Shown here in pieces: positions 22,787 through 37,141 of a stretch of 47,572 bases of DNA. Every line of letters begins with the position of its first letter. The stretch's first letter is position 1. The stretch comes from an uncultured Alphaproteobacteria bacterium. Its GTDB lineage: Bacteria; Pseudomonadota; Alphaproteobacteria; Puniceispirillales; Marisalimonadaceae. The notes under the pieces are model-generated. The model saw only the letters and a list, made by a program, of their open reading frames with translations. It was not told the origin of the DNA and ran no database searches. A program made the translations under genes and the position numbers. The DNA is taken from the NCBI GenBank assembly GCA_937142855.1, contig CAKZQZ010000110.1:1-47572 (forward strand), read 5' to 3'.

Positions 22787-23629
22787 TTATCCTGCTGCAA
22801 ATGTACTAACTAAAGAGCCAACCGTCATACTCCAACCATCTACTAAAACAAAAAGTAAAAGTTTAAAAGGAAGTGCAACTAACATTGGAGATAACATCAT
22901 CATTCCTAATGACATTAATATAGATGAAATAACCATATCAATTACGAGAAATGGCAAGAATAGCAAAAAACCTATTTGAAAAGCTGTCTTAAGTTCACTG
23001 GTCATAAAAGCCGGCAAAGCAATTCTGAATGGTATGTCAGAAACTTTATCAAACTTTTCTAAACCAGCTAATTCGGAAAACATAACTAGGTCGCTCTTCC
23101 TGGTATTTTTAACCATGAAGCTTTTCATTTCAGCACTAGCAGTTTCAAGGGCTTTGTCAGCAGGCAAAGTTTTATCCATGTAAGGAGCTGCTGCGTTATC
23201 ATATACTTTGTTAAATGTTGGTGCCATTATGAAAAATGTAAGGAATAAAGATATAGCTATTAGAACTTGGTTAGGTGGTGTTTGTTGAGTTCCTAGTGCT
23301 TGACGTAGAATTGACATCACTATTATAATTCTTGTAAAGCTTGTCATCCCAAGAACTAAAGATGGTAAAACAGTCAAAGCGGTCATCAACAATAAAATTT
23401 GTAAAGGAAATGAGTATTCAGTTGTATTCCCATTAGTTGATACATTTAATGCTGGGAAACCTGATGTAAATGTTTCACCAAAAGCATTTGTAGACATACC
23501 AGTTATTAATAAAATAGCTGCTGAAAAAGAAATAAGTTTCATAAAATTTTTTAATTTATCCATAGATTGAAATCTATTTTTAATAAAAAAAAATCTCTTC
23601 TCTGGCTGTGGGCAAATTGCTTTACGCAT
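22787..23629 (-). CDS. fliP: Flagellar export protein FliP
   Basis: FliP forms the pentameric core of the export gate. The conserved LPSLVLGMTSFTRIIIVMSILR and GTQQTPPNQVLIAISLFLTFFIM regions and the C-terminal LPFLVIDMVISSILMSLGMMMLSP block are complete (motifs quoted in part). A good Shine-Dalgarno (AGGGA) supports the ATG at 23629, which overlaps fliO by eight bases. It gives a 22-residue basic extension before the signal peptide at MDKLKNFMKLISFS. The alternative ATG at 23563 lacks a Shine-Dalgarno. Confidence 0.95.
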   Translation of the reverse strand: MRKAICPQPEKRFFFIKNRFQSMDKLKNFMKLISFSAAILLITGMSTNAFGETFTSGFPALNVSTNGNTTEYSFPLQILLLMTALTVLPSLVLGMTSFTRIIIVMSILRQALGTQQTPPNQVLIAISLFLTFFIMAPTFNKVYDNAAAPYMDKTLPADKALETASAEMKSFMVKNTRKSDLVMFSELAGLEKFDKVSDIPFRIALPAFMTSELKTAFQIGFLLFLPFLVIDMVISSILMSLGMMMLSPMLVALPFKLLLFVLVDGWSMTVGSLVSTFAAG

Positions 23630-24053
23630 CTCTATTTCCCTTTTTATGAGCTGTTAATAAATCAGAAATATTTACATGTTGAAGAGGTTTTTTGTCTTCA
23701 GTTTTATGTATGATTTTTTTTTCAGAAGAACTGTTATTATTTATAGAAAGTTTTTCTATTTTATTTTTTTGGAATTGAGGCTCAACATCTTTCAAGCTAT
23801 TAATTTGTGTTAACGAGCCTCTTCCAGATTTATGACCCACAAAGAAAAAATTTTCATTACCAACTTTAAGTATATAGGCTAAATAGCCGTCTCTAAGAGG
23901 TAATTGATTAATAACTTCGAGATTATTTTGATTTTTAATTATTCTTTTTAGTGGTCCACTTTTTTTCTTAATGATAAAGGCAACAATACCTAATACCAGC
24001 AAAAATAAGATTGTTACTATAGCTGTGCTAAAATCTGGGACTGTTTGTGACAT
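23622..24053 (-). CDS. fliO: Flagellar protein FliO
   Basis: FliO assists assembly of the FliP ring. The protein is 143 aa with one N-terminal membrane segment (about 9-27, TAIVTILFLLVLGIVAFII) and a small cytoplasmic domain (LPLRDGYLAYILKVGNENFFFVGHKSG) matching the family's weak pattern. It is the first gene of fliOPQR-flhB, behind a clear sigma-54 promoter at 24083-24099 and an AAGGAAG Shine-Dalgarno. Confidence 0.85.
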   Translation of the reverse strand: MSQTVPDFSTAIVTILFLLVLGIVAFIIKKKSGPLKRIIKNQNNLEVINQLPLRDGYLAYILKVGNENFFFVGHKSGRGSLTQINSLKDVEPQFQKNKIEKLSINNNSSSEKKIIHKTEDKKPLQHVNISDLLTAHKKGNRDA

Positions 24054-24082: not shown

Positions 24083-24099
24083 AGCAAGAATGATGCCAA
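24083..24099 (-). promoter_or_regulatory. Sigma-54 promoter for fliOPQR-flhB
   Basis: On the minus strand the sequence reads TTGGCATCATTCTTGCT, with GG and GC at the exact -24/-12 spacing of the consensus YTGGCACGRNNNTTGCW. Transcription would start near 24072, giving an 18-base leader before fliO. This makes fliO-flhB an independent sigma-54 unit. Confidence 0.85.
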
Positions 24100-24151: not shown

Positions 24152-24165
24152 GTCAATTTTTTGAA
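24152..24165. promoter_or_regulatory. Possible FleQ-type box upstream of fliO promoter
   Basis: The sequence GTCAATTTTTTGAA keeps GTCA and three of four bases of the TGAC arm at the 14-base spacing of the FleQ operator. It lies about 53 bases upstream of the -24 element. In AT-rich DNA such a match can arise by chance. Confidence 0.3.
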
Positions 24166-30362: not shown

Positions 30363-31400
30363 CTAAACATAATCGTCACCACCTCTTCCAGCTAGAACGA
30401 TGGTACCTTCATCGGACATACGACGTGCTACAGCAATTATTTGTTTTTGTGCTTCTTGAACCTCTGTTAGCCTAACTGGCCCAAGGGCTTCCATTTCATC
30501 TTGAATGTTTGCTGCTGCACGCTGAGACATACAACCGAATAATTTTGTTCTTAACTCTTCATCAGCGCCTTTTAGAGCTAAAATAATCAAGTCATCTTCA
30601 ACTGCACGTAAAAGAGTTTGCAAAGATTTATCATCAGATAACATTAATGTCTCAAACACAAACATACTATCTTGTATATCTTGCATGAGTTTTTTATCTT
30701 CTTTAAGAATTTCTTTCATGATTTTGGCTTCACCATCACCACTTAAAAAGTTCATGATCTTAGCAGCAGCTGGAACACCTCCAACCTTACTTGCTCTTAA
30801 ACTAGCATTTGATGAAAAAACTTTCTGCATCACTCTATCTAATTCTTTTAAAGCTTCTGGCTGAACGGTCTCAAGAGTGGCTATTCTTCTTATAATGTCT
30901 GCCTGATTTTTTTCTGGCATAAAGTTCAACACATCAGAGGCAGTAGCTGGCTCTAAATACGAAATAATTAAAGCAATAATTTGAGGGTGCTCATCAATAA
31001 TCAAGTCAGCTACTGATCTAGCATCAAGCCAGTCTAGAATTTCTATTGCCTTATTACTGTCAGATGGTGTTATTTTACCAAGAACGGTTTGAGCCTTATC
31101 TTCACCTAAAGACTTGGTTAACACGTTTTTAATATAACCTCCTCCTGAAATGCCAAGGCTTGTTTGTGATTTAATAATTGCTAAGAATTCATCTAAAACT
31201 AGGTTGACAGTATCTTGACCTAACCCTTGAACAGAATACATTGCCGCCCCTAAAACTTGAACCTCTTTTGGCGTAAGGTTTCCCATTATTTCTGCGGCTT
31301 CATCTTCACCAATTAGCATCATTAGAATTGCACATTTTTGTGTGCCGGTTAAACCTTCATAAACTTCTTTTGCGTTAGGTGTTTTTACTGCTTCTGCCAT
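30363..31400 (-). CDS. fliG: Flagellar motor switch protein FliG
   Basis: FliG is the C-ring subunit that contacts the stators and generates torque. The N-terminal domain begins LTGTQKCAILMMLIGEDEAAEIM. The middle domain contains the EHPQIIALIISYL block (EHPQxIA is diagnostic). The C-terminal torque helix carries the charged residues in LRAVEDDLIILALKGADEELRTKLFGCMSQRAA (quoted in part). At 345 aa it is normal. The gene lies between fliF and fliH. Confidence 0.97.
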   Translation of the reverse strand: MAEAVKTPNAKEVYEGLTGTQKCAILMMLIGEDEAAEIMGNLTPKEVQVLGAAMYSVQGLGQDTVNLVLDEFLAIIKSQTSLGISGGGYIKNVLTKSLGEDKAQTVLGKITPSDSNKAIEILDWLDARSVADLIIDEHPQIIALIISYLEPATASDVLNFMPEKNQADIIRRIATLETVQPEALKELDRVMQKVFSSNASLRASKVGGVPAAAKIMNFLSGDGEAKIMKEILKEDKKLMQDIQDSMFVFETLMLSDDKSLQTLLRAVEDDLIILALKGADEELRTKLFGCMSQRAAANIQDEMEALGPVRLTEVQEAQKQIIAVARRMSDEGTIVLAGRGGDDYV

Positions 31401-31430: not shown

Positions 31431-33146
31431 TTATGAATCTTTTTCGATCATACCCTTAAATACGCTTGATACTCTACCTGCCTCGTCGCCAACTATCATT
31501 CTAATAACAGCAACTTTGTCGTCATATGTGTTTGCAGTATCAAGCATTTCTGCTGAAATTGAAGATTTTTTGGGCTTTAACTTAGCTTTAATGTCTTCTA
31601 GTGACTCACCCTCTTGAACCTCAATTTTCTCATCCACATCATCTTCTTCATCTAAAGCCACTGAACCGACACCTGAGGTATAACCTGCTGGAACAAGTAC
31701 CCTTTTTAGAAGTGGATGAAGAGCGCCAAAGATTACTATTGCCAAAATTAATACAGTTGCTAATTGCTGTGCAAGTTCTTTTATAGATTCATTTTCATAC
31801 CAAGGAACTATTTCTGCTTCAAGTGCATCAACAAATGGACTACTAGTGACTGTCACACTATCTCCTCTTGTCTCATCAAAACCAAGAGCTTCCTGGACTA
31901 AAGATTTAATTTCTACTAATTTTTCATCACTAAATTTTTCAAATGTAACCGTTCCTTCAGGAGAAACAGATTTCATCTCTCTAATAATAACTGCAGCTTT
32001 AATTTTGGTTATTTGGCCATACTGAGCAGTTGTTGTTTCAACTTTTCTACTAACTTCATAGTTTTTTACAGAAGTCTGACTTCTTTGCTTAAGGTTAGCT
32101 CCAACACCTTTATTTTCAGGAGCTTCTTTTTTCAAATCTGGTGCCAAAGGTGGTGCGTTTGAAAGAGCTCCTGGGATCCCTCTTGCTTCTGGGTTTGCAC
32201 TTTCATCTAATGAAGTTTGTTCACTTCTAAGAGCATTACCTTTGGGATCAACAGATTCCTCAGTTATCTCACTCTTTGTAAAATTCATATCCACATTAAC
32301 TTCTGCCTTTAAATTTCCTGCACCTACTATTGGTGTCAATAATGAAATAATTCTAGATCGATATATTTCACCTAGCCTCATAGTCTGTGACATTTGTTCG
32401 TTAGACGCAGTAGCCGAACTATCACTAGACGGTTTCGATAAAAGTTCACCAAATTGATCTACTACAGTTATATTTTCTGAAGGTAGGTTGGGTACTGAAG
32501 ACGCAACCAAATGAACAATTGATTGAACTTGCTGCCTTCCAAGTGATCTTCCGTTTGATAATTTTACGAAAATTGAAGCAGAAGGGTGTGCAATTTCCCT
32601 TGCAAAAACTGTTTTTTCAGGAATGGCGAGGTGAACTCTAGCTGAACTAACTCCTGATATGTGGTTTATAGACCTAGATAACTCAGCTTCGAGCGACTGC
32701 TTTATCTTCACAGCTTCAACTGAACGACTTGTACCCATAGGCATATCACCTAAGGTATCATAGCCATTTGGAACTGATGAAGGTAAACCTTCTCCAGCAA
32801 GAAGCATTCTAGATTCATGGTATTCCGCTACTGGAACAATAACTTCTCCTGTTGTTGGGTTTAAAGAAACATCTACACCATTTTGTTTTAAGGTTTGAAT
32901 TACAGCGGCTTTTTCACTCTCAGGTAGTGATGCAAATAAAGTCGTCATATCAGATTTTTGCATAGTGAAGAAAACAATTAGCCCTATGAAAGCTACTATA
33001 ACGCCAAAAATTAAAGGAATAGACTTTTGAACAGCTGGATCAGAAGTTATTTTTCTAACATTCGAAATAGATGAAGAAATACGACTTACTATTCCAGTGT
33101 TTTGACTAAGACCAGATAAATTATTTCCTGTAGTTGCTTCTGCCAT
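31431..33146 (-). CDS. fliF: Flagellar MS-ring protein FliF
   Basis: FliF builds the MS ring, the first flagellar structure in the inner membrane. Two membrane segments flank the periplasmic ring-building domain: about 41-64 (IPLIFGVIVAFIGLIVFF) and about 460-480 (LATVLILAIVIFGALHPLL). The YscJ/FliF domain has the MLLAGEGLPSSVPNGYD block and the SVDPKGNALRSEQT region. The acidic C-terminal tail that binds FliG is present. The 571 aa length is normal. Confidence 0.97.
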   Translation of the reverse strand: MAEATTGNNLSGLSQNTGIVSRISSSISNVRKITSDPAVQKSIPLIFGVIVAFIGLIVFFTMQKSDMTTLFASLPESEKAAVIQTLKQNGVDVSLNPTTGEVIVPVAEYHESRMLLAGEGLPSSVPNGYDTLGDMPMGTSRSVEAVKIKQSLEAELSRSINHISGVSSARVHLAIPEKTVFAREIAHPSASIFVKLSNGRSLGRQQVQSIVHLVASSVPNLPSENITVVDQFGELLSKPSSDSSATASNEQMSQTMRLGEIYRSRIISLLTPIVGAGNLKAEVNVDMNFTKSEITEESVDPKGNALRSEQTSLDESANPEARGIPGALSNAPPLAPDLKKEAPENKGVGANLKQRSQTSVKNYEVSRKVETTTAQYGQITKIKAAVIIREMKSVSPEGTVTFEKFSDEKLVEIKSLVQEALGFDETRGDSVTVTSSPFVDALEAEIVPWYENESIKELAQQLATVLILAIVIFGALHPLLKRVLVPAGYTSGVGSVALDEEDDVDEKIEVQEGESLEDIKAKLKPKKSSISAEMLDTANTYDDKVAVIRMIVGDEAGRVSSVFKGMIEKDS

Positions 33147-33169: not shown

Positions 33170-33484
33170 TTAAACGGGCATATTCATTATATCTTTGTAC
33201 GAACTTAAAACTTTATTCCTGACATTAAGTGTCATTTGGAAAGCTATGCTTGATATTTGTTGTTGCATTATTACTTTTGTTAAGTCTGTTTCTTTACCTA
33301 ACTCATAATCTTTAGTTATTTCTGCGGCTTTATTTTGGCTGTCAGCAACTGAATTAATAGCGTCATTAATTTTTTTTGAGAAGTCCTCAGCCTTCTCACC
33401 TCCAGCAAATGCCTGATTAGCCTTTTCTAAAATATTTTGTCTTAAAAGGCTTGAACTTCCTATGCTTTGATTTGAAACCTGCAT
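33170..33484 (-). CDS. fliE: Flagellar hook-basal body protein FliE
   Basis: FliE joins the MS ring to the proximal rod and is the first export substrate. The 104-aa protein has the characteristic C-terminal part DLTKVIMQQQISSIAFQMTL and VRNKVLSSYKDIMNMPV. It lies 14 bases downstream of the FlbD-like regulator gene and 23 upstream of fliF. Confidence 0.93.
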   Translation of the reverse strand: MQVSNQSIGSSSLLRQNILEKANQAFAGGEKAEDFSKKINDAINSVADSQNKAAEITKDYELGKETDLTKVIMQQQISSIAFQMTLNVRNKVLSSYKDIMNMPV

Positions 33485-33498
33485 TATTTAATTTCCTT

Positions 33499-34695
33499 TT
33501 ATGTTATTTTTGCAAATGCTAGTTGATCAGCAAATGTATCAACTGAAGAATTACTACTTATGCTTGATAGAGACTTGTCGATCATTATAGAATTCTCGTC
33601 TATGATGTTGTTTTGACATAAGACGAGAGCCCTTTGGAGAGTGTTTTCAAGTTCTCTTACATTACCCGGCCAGTCATGTTCTAACAGTAATTCTCTTGCA
33701 CCACTAGTCATGTAGGGTGTCATATTATTTTCTTGAAAATGCTTATTTAAAATTTTAATTGATATAGGAAGTATATCGTCTTTTCTTGCTGATAAATTCT
33801 TTGTTTGAAGAGGAAAAACATTAAGTCTGTAATATAAATCTTCTCTAAACCTTGATTGATTAACCTCGGAAGCCATGTCTCTGTTAGATGTTGCTAAAAC
33901 TCTAACATCAACATCAATATCTCTTTGACCTCCAACTGGAGTAACTTTTCTTTCTTGCAATACTCTTAATAACTTGGCTTGAAGTGATAAAGGCATCTCA
34001 GAAATTTCATCTAAGAGTAAAGTTCCCTTATCAGCAGCTCTAAAAATACCCTTATTGGCATTTGATGCTCCTGTAAAAGCTCCTTTTTCGTGACCAAATA
34101 AAATAGCCTCTAACATATTTTCAGGTATGGCAGCGCAATTTACCGCAACAAAAGGCGCATCCTTTCTGTTTGAATTCTCATGCAAATAATTGGCTAGAAC
34201 CTCTTTTCCTGATCCAGTAGGACCATTAATGAATACTGTTACGTCTGTGTTTGCTACCCTTTTGGCTAATGATAAAAGCTCATAAGTTTTAATATCACCA
34301 GCGGAAAAAGAAATATCAGGACAACACATATTAAAAATAAGTTCTAAAGAATATTGGTCTGTGAAATCTGAAATTGATACTCTTCTTAGAGCGCCTCCTA
34401 ATTCACTTTTGACTTCAAAACCATTTACAGACACATCTTCGCTAATAATGATGACTTTTGTTAATTTAGCCTGCCTGGCAATAGCTACAAGTTTTTGTGA
34501 ACCCCCAACTTCTTTCTCAAACGCGTCTGAGCAAACTATGGTGTCAGCTTGATATCCAACTAAATCTATTCCTAAAAAATTAGGCTTTGAGTTATCACTG
34601 CCTGCTTTAATAACTGTAATGTCTCTATTTTCTAAGATATCACATAAATTATTGGCTATTTTTAAATTGCTGTTAACGACTATAACTTGGCTCAT
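33499..34695 (-). CDS. FlbD-like sigma-54 activator lacking a DNA-binding domain
   Basis: This is a bacterial enhancer-binding protein of the FlbD type, first gene of the fliE operon. Residues 1-125 form a degenerate receiver: the first strand reads IVVNSN where acidic phosphorylation-pocket residues are expected, so phosphorylation is unlikely. The AAA+ domain is complete: Walker A GPTGSGKE (158-165), GAFTGA sigma-54 loop (205-210), Walker B LLLDE (226-230) and [10 protein letters not shown]. After that only about 50 residues remain, ending in FADQLAFAKIT, with no Fis-type helix-turn-helix; fliE follows 14 bases later, leaving no room for one. It should contact sigma-54 but must be guided to DNA by a partner. 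A good AGGAG Shine-Dalgarno and a sigma-54 promoter precede it. Confidence 0.88.
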   Translation of the reverse strand: MSQVIVVNSNLKIANNLCDILENRDITVIKAGSDNSKPNFLGIDLVGYQADTIVCSDAFEKEVGGSQKLVAIARQAKLTKVIIISEDVSVNGFEVKSELGGALRRVSISDFTDQYSLELIFNMCCPDISFSAGDIKTYELLSLAKRVANTDVTVFINGPTGSGKEVLANYLHENSNRKDAPFVAVNCAAIPENMLEAILFGHEKGAFTGASNANKGIFRAADKGTLLLDEISEMPLSLQAKLLRVLQERKVTPVGGQRDIDVDVRVLATSNRDMASEVNQSRFREDLYYRLNVFPLQTKNLSARKDDILPISIKILNKHFQENNMTPYMTSGARELLLEHDWPGNVRELENTLQRALVLCQNNIIDENSIMIDKSLSSISSNSSVDTFADQLAFAKIT

Positions 34696-34727: not shown

Positions 34728-34744
34728 AGCAAGAAGCTTGCCAA
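34728..34744 (-). promoter_or_regulatory. Sigma-54 promoter for flbD-like-fliEFGHIJ operon
   Basis: The minus strand reads TTGGCAAGCTTCTTGCT, with the -24 GG and -12 GC correctly spaced. The expected start near 34717 leaves a 22-base leader with AGGAG. The FlbD-like activator would be made from a promoter of the class it activates, a positive feedback loop. Confidence 0.85.
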
Positions 34745-34809: not shown

Positions 34810-34839
34810 TTGCTTTATCTTCAAAAAAGTCATTATTAT
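34810..34839 (+). promoter_or_regulatory. Probable sigma-70 promoter of the fleQ-like gene
   Basis: TTGCTT (34810-34815) and TATTAT (34834-34839) with an 18-base spacer fit a sigma-70 promoter reading toward the fleQ-like gene; the -10 matches five of six bases and the -35 only three. The -10 is inside the palindrome at 34829-34842. Confidence 0.5.
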
Positions 34840-34842
34840 GAC
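34829..34842. promoter_or_regulatory. FleQ-type operator between the two activator genes
   Basis: GTCATTATTATGAC is a perfect 5-4-5 inverted repeat. It has the outline GTCA-N6-TGAC of the published Pseudomonas FleQ consensus GTCaNTAAAtTGAC. It overlaps the probable -10 of the fleQ-like gene (autorepression) and lies about 85 bases upstream of the sigma-54 promoter of the divergent operon, a normal enhancer distance. Function is inferred. Confidence 0.65.
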
Positions 34843-34884
34843 AAAAATAACAAATTTATTTCAATAATTTGACAGGTTTTGTTT

Positions 34885-36006
34885 ATGAGTCTCGACGATA
34901 GCAGTTCAACTAAGACTAATCCTAATAATATCCTAAATCAGATGATAGACGGTGAAAGCTCTTCTACCAAATCAATGAAAAATTTAATTGCTATGGTCTC
35001 TCAAACAGATAGTACAGCCTTAATACTAGGAGAAACGGGAACAGGAAAAGATGTCGTAGCACAAGCTATTCATAAATGTTCTAAAAAAAAAGGTCCTTTT
35101 GTAACTGTTAACTGCGCAGCTATCCCCTCAGAATTACTCGAGTCTGAATTATTTGGTCACGAAAAAGGTTCATTCACAGGAGCAGACAAACAAAGAAAAG
35201 GACGATTTGAGCAGTCAAGCGGAGGATCACTATTCCTTGATGAAATAGGAGACATGCCCCTCCCCCTACAAGCCAAACTTCTAAGAGCTATTGAAAGTAG
35301 AACTATACAAAGAGTTGGCGGAGCAGAAGATATTAAAATTAATTTAAGATTAATTTGTGCAACTCATAGAGATCTTGAAAAAAAGGTTGAGAGCGGCGAA
35401 TTTAGAGCAGACCTGTTTTTTAGAATTAATGTTTTACCAATAAATGTTCCCTCACTTGCTGAAAGAAGAGAGGATATCCCAAGCCTACAACAAACGCTCT
35501 TAAAAAAAATGAATGTTGATAAGTCATCCGAACCCTTTTTTTCTCCTGATGCTGTAACAGCACTATGCAAACATAACTGGCCAGGAAATGTCCGTGAATT
35601 AAAAAATGTTATAGAAAGAGCTTGTATAATTTTCCCTGGAAAGGAAATTTCAGGAACCAATGTCTATGAAAATTTACTGAGGCTCAAAGTTCCAACCATT
35701 GCTGAGGAGCAAGACGCATTATGGGAAATGACTTCTGATTTGAGTGGGATTAATGAATTAGACGATAATGAGATAATCAGCAATCCAGAAGATTACTTAC
35801 CACATCCCAAAAATTATAAAAATTGGTTTTCATTTTATGATGAAATTGACTTAAGAAGACATTTACAAGATGTAGAAATCGTTCTCATTGAAGAAGCCCT
35901 AGACAAAACAGGTAATAAAATAGCTGCCGCTGCAGACAAGCTTAAATTAAGAAGGACTACGCTGATCGAAAAAATGAAAAAATACTCTATTAGTAAAGAG
36001 CTATAA
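34885..36006 (+). CDS. FleQ-like sigma-54 activator lacking an N-terminal domain
   Basis: This is an enhancer-binding protein with AAA+ and DNA-binding domains only. Walker A GETGTGKD is at 49-56, the sigma-54 loop is GSFTGA (95-100) rather than the usual GAFTGA, and Walker B is LFLDE (116-120). The C-terminal Fis-type helix-turn-helix (about 325-373) contains [14 protein letters not shown], nearly the same as the end of Pseudomonas FleQ. The first 25 residues are unstructured; the FleQ receiver-like domain and its LFRS c-di-GMP switch are missing. I take the ATG at 34885 (AGG 9 bases upstream) over an in-frame TTG two codons earlier. Probable master regulator of the flagellar genes and DNA-binding partner of the divergent FlbD-like protein. 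Confidence 0.85.
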
Positions 36007-36310: not shown

Positions 36311-36751
36311 TTATGCATTCTTAATTTGCATATTATTCCATGCAGATAATATCTGATCTAACGCTTTTTTTGCTTTTATAATGCCGTCATTAATGGATTT
36401 TGTAAATCCAGATATAATTTGGACACGGCAATACTCATAGAGCTGAAATAATCCAGTTGCTATTTTTCCACCTTTATCAAAATCAAGACTTGTTTGAAGA
36501 CTGTAAATAGTTGTAAGAGATCTCGTTACGTTTTTTGAAATTGATTTTTGTAATGATAACAAATCACCACTTTGTTGTTTAATATCTAACTGTTTTTTCT
36601 TTTCAATGTCTTCACTTAAGATTTGCATTGTTCTGCTTAATTCTTGGAGAATAAGTTTTACAACTTCATAAGGATTTTTTTGTAAATCACCTGATTTAAC
36701 TACCTTCTTATATACATCTAAGACACTAGAATTTGTTGTCATATCACTCAA
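36311..36751 (-). CDS. fliS: Flagellin export chaperone FliS (copy 1)
   Basis: FliS binds the C-terminal D0 segment of flagellin and keeps it from polymerising before export. The 146-aa helical bundle shows the family pattern NPYEVVKLILQEL (about 22-34), LQTSLDFDKGGKIATGLFQLYEYC (quoted in part; about 85-108) and a C-terminal ALDQILSAW. It resembles the second copy at 44752-45144 at the same positions. The upstream Shine-Dalgarno is weak (GAG). Confidence 0.85.
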   Translation of the reverse strand: MSDMTTNSSVLDVYKKVVKSGDLQKNPYEVVKLILQELSRTMQILSEDIEKKKQLDIKQQSGDLLSLQKSISKNVTRSLTTIYSLQTSLDFDKGGKIATGLFQLYEYCRVQIISGFTKSINDGIIKAKKALDQILSAWNNMQIKNA

Positions 36752-36787
36752 ACTTGCAAAAAATTAAAATATTTATATAATATAGTA

Positions 36788-37141
36788 ATGTTAGCTACTA
36801 ATACTTATCCTATTAATAATCATAATCAGTATTCTATAAATACTTATAATACTAATATGAGTGATAAACTTGCAAACAACATGCCAAATGGTTTGCTAAG
36901 AGTTGCGGAAACTCAAATAAATAGGAATATTGAAAATAACTTAAAAAATACAAATCTTAGACAAATTTATGCGCCTAAATTATCACCCTCAAATGGTTCA
37001 TTAACAGAGAGCTTCCTTAAGTCCAGATCAAACATGTCACCAGTTTACAGATTTAATGAAGCTGCAACTAAATATCAAATGACAAGCGTTGCACCTACAT
37101 TTCTGAAGCAAATAAAAAATAACGTAGATCTCGTCATATAA
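36788..37141 (+). CDS. Unrecognised Asn-rich protein (117 aa) beside flagellin
   Basis: No family is recognised. The protein is rich in Asn, Ser, Thr and Tyr, with no signal peptide, membrane segment or cysteine. The N-terminal 40 residues (INNHNQYSINTYNTN) are disordered-looking and the rest is mixed. It is divergent from fliS (36 bases between starts) and reads toward flagellin 1. Position suggests an exported or regulatory flagellar protein, for example an anti-sigma or export accessory factor, but nothing in the sequence supports one choice. Confidence 0.5.
   Translation: MLATNTYPINNHNQYSINTYNTNMSDKLANNMPNGLLRVAETQINRNIENNLKNTNLRQIYAPKLSPSNGSLTESFLKSRSNMSPVYRFNEAATKYQMTSVAPTFLKQIKNNVDLVI

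Follow-up and report, generated by a model that had tools for sequence, protein, structure and literature searches.

Paired FleQ-type boxes between divergent FleQ-like and FleT-like activator genes as a probable operator in an uncultured alphaproteobacterium

In the Fla1 flagellar system of Rhodobacter (Cereibacter) sphaeroides, FleQ together with sigma-54 is described to drive an operon of fleT and fliEFGHIJ (PMC7277832), and FleT, which lacks a DNA-binding domain, is described to form a complex with FleQ (PMC11999139). The FleQ box is reported as a 14-bp pseudo-palindrome taken to bind a dimer, with the inverted repeats GTCAAT/ATTGAC (PMC10723142) and the consensus GTCaNTAAAtTGAC in P. aeruginosa and GTCAaAAAAtTGAC in P. 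putida (PMC6120874). FleQ of Pseudomonas is reported to act close to the promoters of flhA, fliE and fliL, with no looping (PMC6120874), PflhA of P. putida is a sigma-54 promoter activated by FleQ (PMC6424431), and duplicate FleQ boxes cause promoter occlusion at biofilm genes (PMC10723142). R144, R185, E330 and R334 are given as c-di-GMP contact positions of FleQ (PMC10723142), and a ChIP study of P. fluorescens judged the P. aeruginosa FleQ motif to be unreliable in that species (PMC6120874). Our literature search found no paper joining FleQ with SAR116 or with Puniceispirillum.

The window analysed here, i.e., the whole stretch of 47,572 nucleotides, contains two divergent activator genes and a flagellar operon headed by one of them. 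The features of this region are as follows (promoter functions of P0001 are predicted).

34885..36006, + strand: P0001, FleQ-like sigma-54 activator with Fis-type HTH and without the FleQ receiver-like domain (Pfam; best PDB relative 8p53)
33499..34695, - strand: P0002, FleT-like sigma-54 activator without HTH (Pfam: AAA+ families only, no HTH_8)
33170..33484, - strand: fliE, second in the operon (PF02049, TIGR00205)
31431..33146, - strand: fliF (TIGR00206, above cut-off)
30363..31400, - strand: fliG (TIGR00207, above cut-off)
34829..34842, + strand: box 1, GTCATTATTATGAC, putative FleQ-type operator, the 14-mer studied
34860..34873, + strand: box 2, TTCAATAATTTGAC, differing from the frame at one position
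34729..34743, - strand: sigma-54 promoter of the P0002-fliE operon, TGGCAAGCTTCTTGC, one mismatch to consensus
34810..34815, + strand: TTGCTT, putative -35 hexamer for P0001 (TTGATT as consensus in the genus, with every column conserved to at least 95%)
34834..34839, + strand: TATTAT, putative -10 hexamer for P0001, contained in box 1 (from the sequence)

The minus-strand operon was arranged in the order P0002, fliE, fliF, fliG. What the original prediction had called a divergent fliE operon is a divergent flagellar operon, but its first gene encodes the FleT-like activator and fliE comes second. In its genes, an HTH-less activator heading the fliE operon beside a FleQ-like gene, this region resembles the FleQ/FleT arrangement of R. 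sphaeroides Fla1.

P0001 was assigned by Pfam to the sigma-54 AAA+ domain PF00158 (E 2e-68) and to HTH_8 (E 6.5e-11), and its residues 15-371 aligned with P. aeruginosa FleQ (8p53) with an E value of 4.3e-91, AAA+ domain and Fis-type HTH included. The 12-residue stretch of the HTH was aligned against RRTTLVEKMRKY of P. aeruginosa FleQ, and the FleQ-like HTH is kept in P0001, as had been predicted. Unlike P. aeruginosa FleQ, P0001 has no receiver-like domain: PF06490 was absent from it and had no match in its own genome at E 0.001, and the protein was therefore named FleQ-like and not canonical FleQ. The equivalents of R144, R185, E330 and R334, counted by hand in the alignment with FleQ, were N, Q, T and K, respectively. 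Because the receiver domain is lacking and the four contact positions are changed, Pseudomonas-type c-di-GMP control is unlikely in this genus. In the family groups f2 and f4 introduced below, the R185 equivalent was kept in 7 of 8 aligned sequences. The sigma-54 contact loop of P0001 was GSFTGA, compared with GAFTGA in FleQ; GSFTGA was common to the other f1 sequences and the f3 sequence L030, and the aligned f2 and f4 sequences had GAFTGA. FlrA of Vibrio and Shewanella belongs to the same activator family, and PDB 26jl ('Flagellar regulatory protein A') was the third match of P0001; the Vibrio and Shewanella loci differ from this one in that the aligned part is preceded by 117-155 aa of open frame and a second activator is encoded on the same strand.

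Box 1 was confirmed at 34829-34842 of the window. The GTCA-N6-TGAC frame predicted for this 14-mer is exact, both outer arms (GTCA and TGAC) of the 14-bp inverted repeat being present, whereas the claim of a perfect palindrome failed, since the symmetry covers 12 of 14 positions (reverse complement GTCATAATAATGAC). Box 1 reads GTCATT-AT-TATGAC, and its inner bases thus differ from GTCAAT/ATTGAC of the Pseudomonas consensus, to which box 2 comes nearer, as do the boxes described below for rpoN and the fliO-position operon. The original prediction spoke of one site and missed box 2, which lies 31 bp from box 1, or about three helical turns, and ends 11 bp before the start codon of P0001; the site is a helically phased pair of boxes.

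The number of boxes was compared with chance. The window contained one exact frame match against 0.27 expected, and 24 of 100 dinucleotide shuffles reached one, so that the count alone is not beyond chance. The own genome contained 11 exact frames and 11 matches to the reversed control pattern, giving no genome-wide excess. Across 37 genus genomes including this one there were 397 exact frames and 267 matches to the reversed pattern, a difference that was given no weight because the control differs in word composition. The 11 exact boxes of the own genome were distributed over two flagellar sites (box 1 and flhA), two other intergenic sites (one upstream of thyA) and seven sites in or at the edge of ORFs unlike flagellar genes. 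Of 16 boxes of relatives that were chosen among the matches listed, 11 were inside ORFs, four upstream of thyA and one upstream of rpoN. The exact GTCA-N6-TGAC upstream of thyA (own genome C53:35340, L045; also L229-L231 and L240) was not counted in the regulon, since it lies within a predicted tmRNA gene in L229 (one locus), and it is probably unrelated.

For conservation, 61 genomes were searched, of which 41 gave matches, and 39 loci were examined. Complete divergent intergenic regions were obtained from 36 loci of four families (21 same-genus, f1; five f2; four f3; six f4), while L026, L027 and L043 had no complete fleQ/fleT region and were left out of the counts. On this comparison, box 1 is beyond chance by conservation and not by count, because its frame was found in 21/21 complete same-genus regions (the identical 14-mer in 19) and 14/14 of its columns were at least 95% conserved in the genus alignment, against 1/17 in the stretch between the boxes. 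The conservation in relatives on which the original prediction had staked itself was thus observed across the genus. Box 2 had 12/14 columns at this level, and a box with one mismatch occurred at its place in 21/21 same-genus regions, with a spacing of 31 bp in 17, 32 bp in three and 30 bp in one. Beyond the genus, at least one box with no more than one mismatch was present in all 36 regions of the four families, where shuffles gave 0.00-0.08 such boxes per intergenic region. Each of the four f3 regions contained one exact box. The exact box was absent from all five f2 and six f4 regions; a box with one mismatch occurred at least once in each of these 11, and a paired spacing of 40-42 bp was seen in 10 of them when two mismatches were allowed in the partner. 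Close to three or four helical turns, the spacings are compatible with two dimers that share a face of the DNA. Conservation is given here as counts, without a combined probability, because the sequences are related. The uncultured Alphaproteobacteria genome AG-911-L17 carried the same divergent pair with an exact box between. Rhodobacteraceae SB2 also carried the gene pair, but was boxless at both the fleQ/fleT-like region and flhA, and its HTH was changed as well; this one case fits co-loss.

The sigma-54 promoter TGGCAAGCTTCTTGC was conserved in 15/15 columns (at least 95%) and was matched at this position in 21/21 same-genus regions, and boxes 1 and 2 sit 99-130 bp from it. On the P0001 side, the putative -35 TTGCTT and the putative -10 TATTAT are separated by an 18-bp spacer. 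A generic promoter scan, for which 2.0 sites were expected, returned four; each of them was on the opposite strand, and the TTGCTT/TATTAT pair was not listed. Overlap of box 1 with the promoter of the FleQ-like gene is plausible. Of the predicted double role, overlap with the fleQ-like promoter and enhancer for the divergent operon, the position suits both.

Since TATTAT lies inside box 1 behind a conserved TTGATT, and a single frame match in the window is not rare, the conservation of box 1 might be explained by a sigma-70 promoter and its context, with no operator involved. This explanation is disfavoured and in our judgement very improbable: the outer GTCA and TGAC arms were kept in 21/21 regions and are found again at flhA, the fliO-position operon and rpoN (see below), and box 2 is held at a fixed spacing. 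A more serious alternative, which we still regard as doubtful, accepts the boxes as an enhancer for the divergent sigma-54 promoter and denies autoregulation of the fleQ-like gene. It draws on the predicted nature of the P0001 promoter elements, which the generic scan missed, and on the lack of FleQ autorepression in the literature searched; set against it are the overlap of box 1 with the putative -10 and the short distance from box 2 to the P0001 start codon. We consider it likely that boxes 1 and 2 are an operator pair of P0001, acting as enhancer of the fleT-like/fliE operon and probably in autoregulation, with both binding and the sign of autoregulation predicted.

The same kind of box was found at other flagellar genes. 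At flhA of the own genome, the box GTCATGAATTTGAC (GTC ATG AAT TTG AC; C48:11283-11296, L004 1501-1514) spans the start codon and is located 93 bp downstream of the midpoint of a sigma-54 promoter; it is the sole other exact box of this genome at a flagellar sigma-54 promoter. A box with no more than one mismatch was present in 39/39 readable flhA genes (L110, with a truncated flhA, and the second flhA copy of G030, with no locus, were left out), over the start codon in 32 and in the leader of the other seven. The start-codon box occurred in 21/21 f1, 3/3 f3 and 8/8 f4 genes. In f2 it was found at the start in 0/7, the box lying instead at -70 to -108 (five exact, two with one mismatch), and the f3 genes had a second exact box 25 bp upstream. 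The three bases before the ATG, which are non-coding, stay GTC in those 32 genes, and this argues for selection on the DNA at the flhA start. A start-codon box as a general habit of FleQ was rejected, as none of 14 flhA genes from 11 named genomes had it at the aligned start; five of the 14 had a box with no more than one mismatch in the scanned region, which in four cases was placed between the gene and a sigma-54-like site, and several of the starts are uncertain. Downstream of flhA in the own genome (C48, L119 9424-12137), the Pfam hits of the next ORFs fit flhF, a fleN-like ATPase of the MinD/ParA type and a fliA-like factor of the sigma-70 family, and the operon in P. putida is reported to have the same order (PMC6424431).

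Upstream of the operon at the fliO position, two further features of the window were found.

24152..24165, - strand: degenerate box TTCAAAAAATTGAC, with a CAAAA-N2-TTGAC core
24084..24098, - strand: sigma-54 promoter of the fliO-position operon, TGGCATCATTCTTGC, strict consensus match

The CAAAA-N2-TTGAC core was present in 19/19 same-genus sequences including the window, with no more than one mismatch to the frame in 10/19. The first gene of this operon (23622-24053) had no Pfam match. The rpoN gene of the own genome, identified by Pfam, is located at C53 51851-53053 (L269). In f1, a box at -202 to -231 was found in 23/23 rpoN loci with the upstream region present (one exact, 22 with one mismatch), and a second near -92 in 15/23. 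The f3 loci had two exact boxes in 3/3, the f4 loci a box near -150 (to -163) in 6/6 and near -76 in 5/6, and the f2 loci a box in 3/6, two of them exact at -15, one of the three misses having its upstream region cut short. These counts exclude L267, L275 and L284 (upstream cut) and L288, G051 and G060 (partial match) and keep L300, cut at 122 bp; the loci with rpoN boxes include L285-L287 and L289-L297. The upstream boxes suggest that the flagellar activator controls the gene of its own sigma factor. Another motif, of the GTCAAAT-N(4-6)-ATTTTG type, was kept from f1 to f4 some 60 bp ahead of rpoN (e.g., L289, L290, L292 and L259), and it looks like a motif separate from the FleQ-type boxes.

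No box with at most one mismatch was found at flgB-like (0/13), fliK-position (0/20) and FlgE/F/G-type genes (0/17) or at the gene left of flhA (0/18). A flagellin box was rejected as not conserved (3/13 with no more than one mismatch, at different places, in a gap-rich alignment that may mix paralogues). Between fliS (36311-36751) and the divergent ORF, ATCAAATTTWTGAC was seen at -29 to -32 in 9/13 same-genus sequences (relatives L071-L084), and the window (36751-36788) is without it.

The original prediction expected enrichment of the motif near sigma-54 promoters, which was examined at 14 promoters, comprising 13 strict matches of the own genome (reversed control 0) and the P0002-fliE promoter. 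Within 150 bp of them (4,200 bp) there were six boxes with no more than one mismatch, against 10 in 37,995 bp of flank (Poisson p 0.0013; overlapping flanks of neighbouring promoters are counted twice). Without the P0002-fliE promoter, four boxes remained (p 0.026). Two exact boxes were near promoters against 0.02 expected, one of the two being box 1, and among the six boxes the one at L060 had no recognised flagellar gene. GTCA ranked second of 256 half-sites by the Poisson measure and 32nd by raw count. Enrichment was therefore modest near sigma-54 promoters and absent genome-wide.

As binding by P0001 is predicted, and no recognised sigma-54 promoter accompanies the rpoN boxes, the boxes could instead be bound by another DNA-binding protein whose palindromic site is similar and which would tie together fleQ, flhA, the fliO-position operon and rpoN. 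We think this unlikely, given that the box matches the published FleQ consensus and that P0001 keeps the FleQ HTH; the two other clear activators of the genome are extended at the N-terminus and, by eye, differ in their HTH sequences, and in SB2, a single case, the changed HTH goes with absent boxes. Binding by P0001 is the preferred reading. What differs from the boxes of Pseudomonas is their placement, which here is between the divergent fleQ-like and fleT-like genes, over the start codon of flhA and ahead of rpoN.

In the mechanism proposed, P0001 would bind both boxes, which some three helical turns bring to a single face of the DNA, and its AAA+ ring would contact sigma-54 RNA polymerase across the 99-130 bp to the promoter, switching on the operon of P0002, fliE, fliF and fliG. 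The same binding would probably limit P0001 synthesis, because it covers the putative -10 and the leader of the P0001 gene. Boxes of this kind would also let P0001 act on flhA, on the fliO-position operon and, probably, on rpoN. Published FleQ work, cited at the outset, lends support to each type of step: dimer binding to a 14-bp box, occlusion by duplicate boxes, and action near the flhA, fliE and fliL promoters. By analogy with R. sphaeroides Fla1, the HTH-less P0002 may then join P0001 at later flagellar promoters.

In conclusion, the intergenic site is very probably a docking site of the flagellar master regulator, because it is kept in relatives and recurs at other flagellar control points. 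In favour of the operator pair, both boxes and the sigma-54 promoter are conserved, boxes occur at flhA, the fliO-position operon and rpoN, and FleQ is the nearest of the solved structures to P0001; counted against it were the lack of an own-genome excess, the seven own-genome boxes at ORFs unlike flagellar genes, the deviating inner bases of box 1, the degenerate f2 and f4 sites, the boxless flagellar promoters, SB2 and the P. fluorescens ChIP study. From the original prediction, the FleQ-type operator, the FleQ-like HTH and the position suited to two roles were supported; the perfect palindrome, the single site and the naming of the divergent operon after fliE, its second gene, were corrected. 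The paired boxes between divergent genes, the flhA start-codon box and the likely rpoN link are read as FleQ/FleT-like control. More tentatively, and with somewhat less than even confidence, we propose that a receiver-less FleQ runs a compact circuit including an rpoN loop that sets the supply of its own sigma factor, and that at flhA, where the operator lies in the start and first codons, protein binding and the FlhA N-terminus constrain each other.

If these readings are true, a testable operator and a small predicted regulon would be available for the master regulator of flagella in a bacterial order that is uncultured. Control in this order would usually follow the FleQ/FleT design of R. 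sphaeroides, its sites being kept in four families, and sigma-54 supply would be tied to flagellar control. In the flhA box, a regulatory site would then clearly have become fixed within a start codon.
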